From Planctomycetota bacterium (GTDB lineage: Bacteria; Planctomycetota; Planctomycetia; Pirellulales; Pirellulaceae): a stretch of DNA of 51,686 nt. The notes below the pieces were generated by a model. That model had not been told where the DNA came from. It saw nothing but the letters and a program-made list of their open reading frames with translations, and did no database searches. The translations under genes were made by a program, and so were the position numbers. Location of the stretch: contig JAPOIJ010000011.1 in assembly GCA_029979005.1 (NCBI GenBank), forward strand, positions 1 to 51,686, given 5' to 3'. This document shows, one piece after another, positions 26,746 to 39,477 of this stretch; position 1 is the first letter of the stretch, and each line of letters starts with the position of its first letter.

Positions 26746-32209
<5,464 letters not shown>

Positions 32210-33543: not shown

Positions 33544-35625
33544 ATGGCTCGTAAACTCCAAAATTTGAGGAACATCGGCATCATCGCTCATATCGATGCC
33601 GGAAAAACGACGGTGACTGAGCGGATGTTGTTCCTCAGCGGTGCTAAGCATCGTGTGGGAAAAGTTGACAGTGGAACGACGACAACGGATGACGATCAAG
33701 AAGAGCAGGAACGTGGAATCACCATTTACTCTGCCTGTGTAACGTTTGACTGGAAGGACATCCATGTCAATCTACTCGATACTCCCGGGCACGTAGATTT
33801 TACGGCGGAAGTCGAGCGTAGCCTTCGGGTACTCGATGGTGCTGTCGTCGTGTTTAGCGCACGCGAAGGTGTGGAAGCGCAAAGCGAGACGGTTTGGCGC
33901 CAGGCCAACAAGTATGGCGTACCGAGAATGGCGTTTATCAATAAACTCGATCGCGAAGGTGCTGGATTTGAGCGGGTTTTCAATGAGATCAAAACCCGTC
34001 TGGGAGCCAATCCCGTTGCGTTGCAAATTCCCGTTGGACTGGGGCCATCACACGTAGACGATCCGTTTCGTGGATTGATCGACCTGATAAAGATGCGGTA
34101 TGTGACGTTTGAGGATGAGGGGAAGAAACAAAAAGAGTCCCCGATTCCTGAAGACCTGCTTGATGAAGCGGAGTTCGCTCGCGAGCAATTGTTGGAAACG
34201 CTTTATGACTTCAGTGATGAAATGGCGGAATTGGCGTTTGAAGGAAAATCGATTTCCAACGAGTTGATTCGCAAAACCGTACGCGAAGCGACTTTGAAAG
34301 GAAAAATTCATCCGGTGGTTTGCGGTTCCGCTTTGCATGGAATCGGTGTACAGGGTGTGCTCGATGGAGTTAAGCACTATCTTCCCAATCCACTGGAACG
34401 GCCACCTGTGGTGGGAACCAATCCGCGAAAACCGGAACAGGAGTTGTCTCGTAAGCCAGATCCTAAAGAACCGTTTTGTGGCCTGGTGTTCAAAATTCTA
34501 CCGGCAAAAACTGGCGACCTTTATTGGATACGGATCTACTCGGGAGTATTGAAGGGTAATTCGCGAGTTTACTGTCCATCGAGAGATAAAAAAGAAAATG
34601 CAGCTCAGTTGTGGCAGATTCATGCCACGAAAAAAGAGAGAGATGGTCAATTGGATGAAATTTCCTGTGGCGAAATCGTTGGCGTGATTGGTCCTCGATT
34701 TGCAGTGACGGGAGATACGCTTTGTGAGCAAGGCAATCCAATTCTTCTCGAGCCGATCGAGTTTCCGGAAACGGTGATTGAGATGGCGATTGAACCGGAG
34801 TCGACGGCGGATCGAAATAAACTTGGTGAAGTTCTTGATTTGTTGAAGAAACAGGATCCGACTTTCAAAGCAAATGAAAATGAAGATACTGGCCAGACCT
34901 TGATTGCCGGGATGGGAGAACTTCATCTCGAGGTGATTAAAAATCGGCTGCTGCGAGATTTTAACCTGAATGTGAAAGTTCATAAGCCACGAGTTTCCTA
35001 TCGGGAGACAGTTGGACAGAGTGTAGAAGTTACAGGTGAGTGTCATCGCTTGGTCAATGGCCAACAGTTGTTTGCTAAAGTCAAATTGCGAATGGAACCC
35101 GATGAGAAGATTGAGACGGGGATTGCAATTCGAAGTCGATTGCCGATTGATGCGATGCCACCGGAAATGGTCCAGTCAGTAAAAGACGAAATCAAGGCTC
35201 GCGGCGAGGGAGGCGGTTCGATTGGCAGTTTCCCGTTGGCGAAAATTCGTGTGACATTGTTGGATGCTGAGGCGACGGAGGAATCGACTCCTATGGCGTT
35301 TTCAATTGCAGCCGGAGAAGCGTTCGAAGAAGCGTTAAGAAAGGCCTCTCCGATGTTGCTGGAGCCGATTATGAAGTTGACCATTACCACTCCCGAGGAT
35401 TATTACGGTGAGTTTGTGGGGGATTTGGCACAGCGGCGAGCCCAGATCGTCAGTACGGACACCCACTTAGAAACAACGACGATTATTGCCAATGCACCTT
35501 TGGCTGAGCTATTCGGTTATTCCAGCGCCATGCGTTCCCTTTCGCAGGGGAGGGCAGGGAGTTCGATGGAACCTTTGGAGTATGCTCCCGCGCCAGTTGA
35601 TGTGGCTCAGTCATTTGCCTTGTAA
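33544..35625 (+). CDS. fusA: Elongation factor G
   Basis: Translocase/recycling GTPase, 693 residues: P-loop AHIDAGKTT, intact switch I ERGITIYSAC, DTPGHVDF, NKLDREG, domain IV/V segments (GQTLIAGMGELHLEV, ALRKASPMLLEPIMKLTITTPEDYYG, DLAQRRAQI). The normal RGITI here contrasts with EF-Tu in the same window. VTFDWKDIHVN...LRVLDGAVVVFSAREGVEAQSETVWRQ recalls the mitochondrial-EFG2 / spd-type EF-G known from spirochaetes and planctomycetes, so this may be one of several EF-G copies and possibly a recycling form. No clear ribosome site precedes the ATG. Confidence 0.95.
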   Translation: MARKLQNLRNIGIIAHIDAGKTTVTERMLFLSGAKHRVGKVDSGTTTTDDDQEEQERGITIYSACVTFDWKDIHVNLLDTPGHVDFTAEVERSLRVLDGAVVVFSAREGVEAQSETVWRQANKYGVPRMAFINKLDREGAGFERVFNEIKTRLGANPVALQIPVGLGPSHVDDPFRGLIDLIKMRYVTFEDEGKKQKESPIPEDLLDEAEFAREQLLETLYDFSDEMAELAFEGKSISNELIRKTVREATLKGKIHPVVCGSALHGIGVQGVLDGVKHYLPNPLERPPVVGTNPRKPEQELSRKPDPKEPFCGLVFKILPAKTGDLYWIRIYSGVLKGNSRVYCPSRDKKENAAQLWQIHATKKERDGQLDEISCGEIVGVIGPRFAVTGDTLCEQGNPILLEPIEFPETVIEMAIEPESTADRNKLGEVLDLLKKQDPTFKANENEDTGQTLIAGMGELHLEVIKNRLLRDFNLNVKVHKPRVSYRETVGQSVEVTGECHRLVNGQQLFAKVKLRMEPDEKIETGIAIRSRLPIDAMPPEMVQSVKDEIKARGEGGGSIGSFPLAKIRVTLLDAEATEESTPMAFSIAAGEAFEEALRKASPMLLEPIMKLTITTPEDYYGEFVGDLAQRRAQIVSTDTHLETTTIIANAPLAELFGYSSAMRSLSQGRAGSSMEPLEYAPAPVDVAQSFAL

Positions 35626-35737
35626 ATTTTTTCATGAAAATTAAAAGGGGAGTGTAAGTTTCTTCGGTCGTTGATGTCGATCATTAATGTAGGAAGTTTG
35701 ATGGAGTCGATCGTTCCAATCCTGCGAAAGTGGCTTG

Positions 35738-35765
35738 TTGACCTGTAACGGCAACCGGCTAGAAT
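35738..35765 (+). promoter_or_regulatory. Promoter of the thioredoxin gene
   Basis: TTGACC (-35) and TAGAAT (-10) are 16 bases apart, about 88 bases before the ATG; each matches the sigma-70 consensus in five of six bases. Confidence 0.6.
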
Positions 35766-35853
35766 CGAAAAAACGATCGAGATTATCTGGATTTGTGTAT
35801 TCGTTATTCGGGGTATTTCCCGACATAGCGACGATTTTAAAATTGGAGAAAAT

Positions 35854-36174
35854 ATGGCGGCAGAATTTACGAAGGACTCATTCGAAGCGGATGTTATCGG
35901 CTCCGAGAAACCCGTTTTGGTTGATTTTTGGTCGCAAGGCTGACCTCCCTGCAAAAGACTGGGTCCAGTCATTGATGAACTTGCAGCAGAGAACGATGGA
36001 AAATCGGTTGTCGGCAAGGTAAACGTAGGCGAACACATGGAGTTGGCGGTCCAATTTGGAATTTCCGCTGTTCCAACAATTTTGGTATTCAAAGGTGGCG
36101 AGGTTGTCGAGCGAATCGCCGGATACAAGGACAAAAGCGAATTGCAGGCTGTTCTTGACAATCACAGCAGCTAA
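35854..36174 (+). CDS. trxA: Thioredoxin, probable selenoprotein (Sec30, UPPC active site)
   Basis: Thioredoxin of 106 residues, the disulfide reductase of the cytoplasm and an electron donor for ribonucleotide reductase. The ATG at 35854 has GGAG upstream. The frame is open to TAA at 36172 except for a TGA at 35941-35943. It falls exactly at the first active-site Cys: VLVDFWSQG-[TGA]-PPCKRLGPVIDELA aligns with FWAEWCGPCK of E. coli. The rest is intact, including the cis-Pro motif SAVPTILVFKGGEVV. A hairpin GACTG-GGTC-CAGTC starts 13 bases after the TGA, with its loop 18 bases after, which fits bacterial SECIS rules. I therefore read TGA as selenocysteine. A nonsense mutation or base error is the alternative. 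It has its own promoter and terminator. Confidence 0.85.
35944..35985 (+). promoter_or_regulatory. Candidate bacterial SECIS element
   Basis: Downstream of the TGA at 35941, GACTG (35957-35961) pairs with CAGTC (35966-35970) around the loop GGTC. The E. coli fdhF SECIS also has a GGUC apical sequence whose G and U contact SelB. The loop begins 18 bases after the TGA, within the 16-37 range known for bacterial SECIS. A lower stem TGCAA (35950) / TTGCA (35981) is possible. Confidence 0.75.
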
Positions 36175-36205: not shown

Positions 36206-36233
36206 AACCTTTGCCTTCGAGCAAAGGTTTTTT
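36206..36233 (+). terminator. Rho-independent terminator after the thioredoxin gene
   Basis: AACCTTTGC / GCAAAGGTT, a perfect nine-base stem with a CTTCGA loop, runs into six T, 32 bases after the stop. Confidence 0.92.
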
Positions 36234-37719: not shown

Positions 37720-39477
37720 TTACTCTGTCGAAAGCATTTTCAAGTCTGGTGCGATCCGCTCGATTAGGCGGGCGACGAATTTTTTCACCTGCGCCGTCGT
37801 TTTGAATTTCATGACTGCGGCCACGATTCGCTCAGATTCTTCAACGGTAATTTGACTCGCCAGTTGTTTGATCGAAGGAATGAAGGCGGGGCTCATGCTG
37901 AACCGTCGCAGTCCCATTCCCAGCAAGAGCACGAACGCTCGCGGGGTGCCTGCCATTTCGCCGCAAACTGTAATTGGGACGTTTGCTCGATTGCAAACCT
38001 CGATTACGTTTTTGAGGACAATTAATACGGGAGGTGCCAGGGGCTGGCAAAGGTGGGCGACTTTTGGGTTATCGCGGTCGGCAGCCATTAGGTACTGCAC
38101 GAGGTCATTTGAACCGACAGACACGAAATCGACTAAATCAATCATCGTGCTAATGGAGACGGCTGCTGCAGGGACTTCCAACATCATGCCAATCGGGACT
38201 TCTTTTGTTTTGATACCTCTTGAGTTGAGTGTCTTGTAGGCTCGGCGAACCATGCTGCGAAGTTTTCGAATTTCTTCGACCGTGGTAACCATCGGGAACA
38301 TTAGCCGGACCGTACCTTCCGGGAATTCACTCGCGGCCCGAACGATTGCGCGAATTTGAGTATTGAAGAATTCAGGGTGCTCGAAAGAAAGCCGGATGCT
38401 TCGCCAGCCCATAAACGGGTTCGCTTCTTTGTGGTCGTGGCCGAGGTAGGCGACCGTCTTGTCTCCACCAATATCGAGCGTACGAATAGTTACGTTGTGG
38501 TTGGGGCTGGCAGCAACGATTGCCCGGTAGGCTTCGTATTGTTCGTCTTCGTCGGGAACGCTGGGATGGGTAAGGTACAGGTATTCCGTCCGGTAAAGGC
38601 CGACACCGGAAGCCCCCATCGCGCACGCGGCGTTGGCATCAGCGACACCGTTAATATTGCCTTGTAGGCGAAGTTCGCAGCCATCGGCTGTAAGGGAAGG
38701 TTGGTCTCGATTGGTTGCGAGTTTGTCTTTTAAATCGAAAAATTCGCGTTCGAGTTTCTTGAACGCTTTGAGCGTCTCGGAATTAGGGTTGATCTCGATA
38801 TGGCCGTCGCGACCATCGACAACGATCGTATCTCCGGTTTTTACCTTTCGCGCGATTCCACTAACGCCAGAAACCGCAGGGATACCTCGTGAGCGAGCCA
38901 CAATCGCCGCGTGGCTGGTTTGGCTACCTTTTTGCGTGACGATGCCATGCACGTCCATGTCGCCCAAAGCGACAACTTGAGATGGCAAAAGTTCGTCTGC
39001 CACGACAATTAGCGGCCCCACGATTGATCCAGTCTCAGGTTTAGCGGCATCGTTGAGGTGGCTTCCCAGTCGGATGATCACGTCGCGGACGTCGTTGAGT
39101 CTTTCCTGGAGGTATTCATCGTTGGTCCTTGCAAAGAGAGTTGTGTATTCTCCGAGCAACCGATGAAGTGCAGCGGACGAATTCATTTTATCGTCAACGA
39201 TCCAACTGCGAATCTTGTTCGTGAACGCAGCATCTCGGAGGATCGCCTGGTGAACAGCAAAGATCGATGCTTCTTCGCGGCCGACTTGCGCTTCAACTTT
39301 GCGCTCCAAGGCGCGAAGATCCGCACCGGCTTTATCGCGAGCGGTCTCGTAGTTGGCCAGTTCGGCGGTAATTTGGGAGTCTTCGAGGCGCTTGGTATCA
39401 GGATTAACGAAAATTTCGTGAATCACATAGGCTGTGCCTATCGCAACTCCGGGTGAGACTGCTATTCCTCTTCGCAT
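37720..39477 (-). CDS. ptsI: Phosphoenolpyruvate-protein phosphotransferase (PTS enzyme I)
   Basis: Takes phosphate from phosphoenolpyruvate and passes it to HPr. 585 residues: N-terminal GIAVSPGVAIGTAYV, the phospho-His site QKGSQTSHAAIVAR with His189 (the same number as in E. coli), and the C-terminal PEP-binding barrel with LYRTEYLYL, NPFMGWRSIRLS, MLEVPAA and DFVSVGSNDLVQYLMAADR. There is no N-terminal GAF domain, so it is ptsI-like rather than ptsP-like. HPr and sugar permeases are not nearby; in planctomycetes such proteins may serve regulation more than sugar uptake (inference). Confidence 0.94.
   Translation of the reverse strand: MRRGIAVSPGVAIGTAYVIHEIFVNPDTKRLEDSQITAELANYETARDKAGADLRALERKVEAQVGREEASIFAVHQAILRDAAFTNKIRSWIVDDKMNSSAALHRLLGEYTTLFARTNDEYLQERLNDVRDVIIRLGSHLNDAAKPETGSIVGPLIVVADELLPSQVVALGDMDVHGIVTQKGSQTSHAAIVARSRGIPAVSGVSGIARKVKTGDTIVVDGRDGHIEINPNSETLKAFKKLEREFFDLKDKLATNRDQPSLTADGCELRLQGNINGVADANAACAMGASGVGLYRTEYLYLTHPSVPDEDEQYEAYRAIVAASPNHNVTIRTLDIGGDKTVAYLGHDHKEANPFMGWRSIRLSFEHPEFFNTQIRAIVRAASEFPEGTVRLMFPMVTTVEEIRKLRSMVRRAYKTLNSRGIKTKEVPIGMMLEVPAAAVSISTMIDLVDFVSVGSNDLVQYLMAADRDNPKVAHLCQPLAPPVLIVLKNVIEVCNRANVPITVCGEMAGTPRAFVLLLGMGLRRFSMSPAFIPSIKQLASQITVEESERIVAAVMKFKTTAQVKKFVARLIERIAPDLKMLSTE

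Follow-up and report, generated by a model that had tools for sequence, protein, structure and literature searches.

Thioredoxins in which selenocysteine (Sec) occupies the active site are known from several bacteria, and a dedicated study of one of them has reportedly been published. Such proteins are listed for Geobacter, Anaeromyxobacter, Carboxydothermus and Treponema denticola (PMC1794560); a sequence-only reading of the present locus had regarded them as known mainly from marine metagenomes, which does not agree with this list of genera of other phyla. In a 2026 review, thioredoxin is placed ahead of the entries "predicted with high confidence" (PMC13188914). The known Sec-thioredoxins (PF00085, UxxC; for example, WP_010956703.1, cited in two reviews) have Sec where CxxC has its first Cys and use bacterial Sec decoding (PMC1794560, PMC9312934, PMC13188914), and the same arrangement is predicted here. 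When compared by description rather than by alignment, the present protein differs from them in its phylum and in its U-P-P-C motif, and also in that it is the only cytosolic-type thioredoxin detected across eight close genomes. The "Trx-like 1" UxxC selenoproteins of the GOS data are likewise thioredoxin-like and marine (PMC2398784). They are described there as metagenomic sequences, to which the present gene adds genomic context, the decoding machinery and relatives whose Cys counterpart occupies the locus. Full sets of Sec genes were reported for the planctomycete strains P1 and P2, which belong to the same phylum; the selenoproteins named in the matching passages of that paper are formate dehydrogenase and formylmethanofuran dehydrogenase, with no Sec-thioredoxin among them (PMC4807772). 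No planctomycete Sec-thioredoxin was found in the literature among the matches listed (titles, starts of abstracts and passages).

The window, that is, the whole stretch of DNA that was analysed, comprises 51,686 nucleotides of a planctomycete genome (G000; 5.06 Mb, 322 contigs, 92.5% complete). The frame under study (Table 1) begins with ATG, ends with TAA and contains a single internal stop, the TGA at codon 30, in the context VDFWSQG-U-PPCK. It was thus confirmed directly in the sequence that the only in-frame TGA coincides with the first Cys of CxxC and that the remainder of the gene is intact, both of which had been claimed earlier. With Cys written for Sec, the protein scored 99.5 bits with the TIGR01068 thioredoxin model (cut-off 96.8) and 86.6 bits with PF00085 (cut-off 23.5), and its top PDB matches were thioredoxins. 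The redox motif at residues 30-33 and an AVPT stretch were present, the proline of VPT presumably being the cis-Pro; the CxxC pattern is complete only when Sec is counted as Cys. A gene caller halting at the TGA would truncate the gene or miss it. The Shine-Dalgarno-like sequence was compared in G000 and 10 relatives. The promoter and the terminator had also been described as intact; matches to both exist in the region, but neither exceeds the expectation from shuffled sequences (2 found vs 1.1 expected for promoters and 1 vs 1.3 for terminators). Despite this count at chance level, a terminator consisting of the 9-pair stem and the T run looks plausible. When the region was scanned against Rfam, all matches were below threshold and attributable to chance.

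Table 1. Coordinates of the features discussed (positions in the window unless a contig of G000 is given).
Feature	Position	Strand	Remark
Thioredoxin gene, 106 residues, one in-frame TGA predicted to be read as Sec, U-P-P-C active site	35854..36174	+	
Predicted UGA Sec codon, residue 30, replacing the first active-site Cys	35941..35943	+	Homologue comparison
Probable bacterial SECIS hairpin GACTG[GGTC]CAGTC	35957..35970	+	Conserved in TGA genes; synonymous dip
Shine-Dalgarno-like GGAGA	35845..35849	+	Near the start codon in 11/11 genes compared
Sigma-70-like promoter match TTGACC-16-TAGAAT	35738..35765	+	Weak evidence
Terminator-like 9-pair stem, then T run	36206..36229	+	Weak evidence
Conserved upstream neighbour (presumably fusA, EF-G)	33544..35625	+	
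Conserved downstream neighbour (presumably ptsI-like)	37720..39477	-	Marks the locus
TlpA/redoxin-like TGA genes	G000:C290:29778-30194, C39:8051-8455, C117:9924-10292, C174:16022-16372		

The codon at position 30 was compared across the 28 genomes of the genus. It was TGA in 15 of them (G000, G019, G022, G016, G003, G017, G018, G007, G024, G015, G025, G006, G002, G001 and G014) and TGC or TGT in the best homologue of nine (G012, G008, G013, G020, G027, G026, G010, G005 and G009); in the remaining four (G004, G011, G021 and G023), where the matches were partial or distant, the codon was left unread. Three genomes (G025, G002 and G006) carry a Cys thioredoxin copy beside the TGA gene. The sequence-only reading had expected a rare case in this lineage, which does not hold for a form present in more than half of the genus; it had also proposed an alignment of homologues for Cys/Sec pairs, and such pairs were found. 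All 30 homologues read had Sec or Cys at this codon, 15 of each, and the disrupted frames that had been named as a reason for rejecting the reading occurred in none of them. Close relatives included Mariniblastus sp. (L050-L052) and a member of Pirellulaceae (L053). A scan of named genomes yielded 323 loci, and the 80 that were kept comprised 8 with TGA, 68 with Cys and 4 unread by motif; the 8 TGA loci belonged to Mariniblastus, Pirellulaceae or Planctomycetaceae and overlap the genus genomes, being not independent of them.

The earlier reading had also proposed a search for selA, selB, selC and selD and had named their absence as a ground for its rejection. All four are present. In the profile search of G000, selA (586 bits), selB (365.9), selD (259.2) and tRNA-Sec (67.4) exceeded the curated thresholds, on four different contigs, and ARAGORN confirmed the tRNA-Sec with the anticodon TCA. 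Among 14 control genomes, the threshold was passed by one for selA, two for selB, two for selD and five for the tRNA-Sec model; because of these five, the last model alone is not specific. Within the genus, selA was over the cut-off in 22 of 28 genomes and selB in 25. The corresponding numbers for the genomes with a TGA thioredoxin were 12 of 15 (not G003, G018 and G002) and 14 of 15 (not G002). Judging from G006 and G001, where selA adjoins selB, the absence of both matches in G002 could be due to a single assembly gap. All nine Cys-thioredoxin genomes contained selA as well, so that the presence of the machinery is no predictor of the Sec form.

The SelD of G000 (L191:4537-6759) is a 740-residue fusion with an N-terminal pyridine-nucleotide oxidoreductase (Nterm_to_SelD) and has no internal stop. 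It exceeded the cut-offs of TIGR03169 (349.5 bits) and TIGR00476 (selD, 256.3 bits); its top score, 404.3 bits, was with TIGR04369 ("fusion_not_SelD") and lay below the cut-off of 700. A thioredoxin reductase without an internal stop was found over the cut-off in G000 and, altogether, in 17 of the 20 genomes searched; within the close cluster, none was found in G017. In the G000 reductase (L188:3201-4289), an insertion of approximately 43 residues separates profile positions 51 and 53. The reductase match was split alike in 19 of 20 genus genomes, Sec and Cys ones, with 34-43 residues in those measured. A neighbour of the Sec-thioredoxins of other genomes, approximately 493 residues long, was considered as a reductase and rejected, since it is a glutamate synthase small subunit in G006 and MFS-like in G025.

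The candidate SECIS element consists of the stem GACTG (35957-35961), the loop GGTC (35962-35965) and the stem CAGTC (35966-35970), and the loop starts exactly 18 nt after the TGA, as had been claimed. This hairpin agrees with the bacterial SECIS consensus, in which loop positions 1 and 2 are G and the distance from the UGA is 16-37 nt (PMC13188914). The likeness to Escherichia coli fdhF that had been pointed out was borne out for the loop, since in K-12 fdhF (NC_000913) a GGTC also starts 18 nt after the TGA; a second GGTC is found there at 32 nt. The window hairpin differs from the fdhF SECIS in having five uninterrupted pairs, other letters and no bulged U. In fdhF-type SECIS elements, a bulged U in the upper stem is important, and because it is absent here, the window hairpin was not classed as fdhF-type.

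The hairpin was identical in 11 of the 15 TGA genes, down to G025 with 59% protein identity. The other four TGA genes are divergent: those of G001, G002 and G006 retained four stem pairs, one of them G-T, and an AGYC loop at the same distance from the TGA, and that of G014 had no convincing stem. None of the nine Cys homologues contained GACTG[GGTC]CAGTC; a 4-bp stem with the loop ACTC occupied the hairpin position in the Cys gene of G020. Synonymous diversity in the 11 TGA genes was 0.113 at codons +5 to +10 vs 0.516 in the other compared codons. The nine Cys genes showed no such dip (0.798 vs 0.719 elsewhere). Therefore, the hairpin is under synonymous constraint in the TGA genes only. In folding energy, the 45-nt stretch was ordinary (z 0.71; 157 of 200 shuffled sequences folded at least as well), and the hairpin was part of its minimum-energy fold in nine of the 11 genes that share the identical element (not in G019 and G015).

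Taken from the genomic evidence, it is very probable that the gene encodes a cytosolic thioredoxin into which Sec is inserted by the ribosome at UGA codon 30 via SelA, SelB, SelD and the GGUC hairpin. SelD would provide selenophosphate, with which SelA would convert seryl-tRNA-Sec to selenocysteyl-tRNA-Sec; SelB carrying this tRNA would bind the hairpin with the GGUC loop, 18 nt beyond the UGA, and supply Sec. The selenol of U-P-P-C, being at the attacking position, would reduce target disulfides; for the resulting selenenylsulfide, Cys33 would serve for resolution and the thioredoxin reductase of the genome for re-reduction.

In the close cluster and in G024, the TGA gene lies between what we take to be fusA and a membrane-protein gene, followed by the presumed ptsI. 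The same locus is occupied by Cys thioredoxins with C-G-P-C in G026, G010, G005, G027, G020 and G009, the gap between fusA and the gene being approximately 2.5 kb in G027 and 5.8 kb in G020; the G009 contig has the ptsI side only. Sec genes outside the close cluster and G024 are found at other loci. Further upstream in the window, a frame with four similar repeated segments ("DDLT[RK]IEGIGP") was noted at 30797-32209, flanked by genes that are presumably rpoC and rpsL.

In a protein tree of 33 rows, the 15 Sec rows were joined by the Cys rows of G012, G008 and G013 and of the second copy in G025, all four with C-P-P-C, in one group with support of 100/98, and the C-G-P-C rows fell outside it. 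A single clade of all Sec rows was rejected (p-AU 3e-6), as was a single clade of the four C-P-P-C rows (p-AU 4e-5). The simplest reading would be one gain of Sec followed by about three returns to Cys, which may have left C-P-P-C as a scar. This history amounts to four changes, at least three of them forced by well supported branches. The tree has good support for only 7 of its 29 inner branches, its C-P-P-C group was picked out post hoc, and the Cys copy of G025 is a long branch. Independent gains of Sec are possible.

The TGA gene was the best PF00085 match in all eight close genomes, with 75.4-78.7 bits vs 34.7-46.7 bits for the runner-up; the same search gave the canonical Cys thioredoxins of G006 and G002 scores of 109.4 and 107.9 bits. 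The best 6 of the 11 other PF00085 matches in G000 all had a signal- or lipoprotein-like start by eye, and several were domains of longer proteins. One of the six, a short stand-alone C-P-P-C protein (163 codons, 33.3 bits), looked exported. Thus, none of the eight close genomes showed a second cytosolic-type thioredoxin, G000 being read in part and the other seven judged by scores. At a completeness of 88-93%, a gene could be absent from one of these assemblies, but hardly from all of them.

The same observation would suit a selenium-regulated switch, in which translation without selenium stops at codon 29 and the gene senses selenium instead of serving as the main thioredoxin: because no other cytosolic-type thioredoxin was detected, selenium shortage would matter to these cells. 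However, a simple promoter and terminator scan revealed no regulatory sequence at the locus, and Cys is found in several lineages within the Sec group, in keeping with an ordinary enzyme shedding its dependence on selenium. Such a switch is therefore improbable.

Because TGA is one base away from both TGC and TGT, a mutated or misread Cys codon, that is, a pseudogene or a sequencing error, was also considered. The same TGA was retained in 15 genomes, including 14 further assemblies of the genus, down to 54% protein identity, and no other stop was present in the frame. In the eight close genomes, pN was 0.008 and pS 0.189 before the TGA, and pN was 0.021 and pS 0.323 after it. Since pN is low relative to pS after the TGA, it may be concluded that the part downstream of the stop is translated and constrained. 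This strong purifying selection and the recurrence of the codon make a pseudogene or an error highly unlikely.

Reading of the UGA as Trp, or by generic read-through, has just as little probability; the in-frame TGA itself is the only point in its favor. TGA terminates 7 of the 38 non-overlapping long frames in the window (one of them an unsupported antisense frame), the 15 homologues read that lack the TGA have Cys there, and both the Sec machinery and the hairpin are present. Within the window, the antisense frame 35607-36161 stays open over 184 codons, and in G019 it is open too, but it contains 5-7 stops in nine of 10 relatives (when positioned at a constant offset from the start codon) and the sense frame matches thioredoxin models, so that the chance of the antisense frame being the real gene and the thioredoxin frame an accident is negligible.

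Besides the Sec-thioredoxin gene, four more probable selenoprotein genes were noted in G000 (L219-L222). They are TlpA/redoxin-like, with the TGA at the first Cys of CxxC in the motif DFWGDW-U-PPC and its variants. Each has GAGC[GGTC]GCTC (GGAC in one) 31 nt after the TGA; the C117 hairpin was read by eye, and other hairpins there scored higher. The four genes were treated as one case because they are mutually homologous and the element overlaps a conserved peptide. The GGTC loop common to the thioredoxin and TlpA-like genes, with a different stem and distance, suggests a putative shared SelB target. A Cys paralogue of this family is located at C24 of G000, and TGA members occur in much of the genus.

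In the phylum, the DNA pattern DF[W/Y/C]xxx-UGA-xPC matched in 88 of 392 genomes, with five matches in G000, and a reversed-control pattern gave a single match among the matches listed. Of the 33 pattern loci read, nearly all were frames of greater length that carry DFWGxW-U-type motifs and appear TlpA-like by eye; two matches (L229 and L230) look like chance. One locus (L248, genome G302) from a different planctomycete family is a stand-alone Sec-thioredoxin candidate of approximately 109 residues with U-G-P-C. No GGTC loop was found within 60 nt after its TGA; CTCCA[GTTT]TGGAG, seen by eye, has its loop starting 24 nt after the TGA. Sec-thioredoxins thus appear to exist elsewhere in the phylum and seem uncommon in the 392-genome sample, for which the pattern misses other motifs. 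A lipoprotein-like thioredoxin with W-U-G-P-C was also observed in G025 (L195, G025:C1:2030574-2030852), followed by the hairpin TTGAAGC[CGGG]GCTTCAG with its loop 22 nt after the TGA.

As a predicted protein, the Sec-thioredoxin is of a type already known in other phyla, and by sequence it qualifies as such in all respects examined apart from the fdhF-type bulge. What is surprising, as far as genomes can tell, is that the eight close genomes yielded no cytosolic-type thioredoxin besides this one and that Sec and Cys appear to have been switched repeatedly within one genus. Selenoproteins are usually regarded as specialised enzymes with Cys alternatives. It may tentatively be proposed that here the primary, possibly the only, cytosolic thioredoxin is a selenoprotein without a Cys back-up, by which a housekeeping electron carrier would be tied obligately to selenium, and that one genus holds a Cys ancestor and the Sec form at the same locus together with repeated returns to Cys in the Sec group. 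If this is true, basic cell chemistry, including whatever depends on thioredoxin, is bound to the selenium supply. The genus would represent a natural series, from Cys at the shared locus to Sec and to Cys again with the C-P-P-C scar, which would allow the cost and benefit of Sec to be measured in one small, well understood protein.
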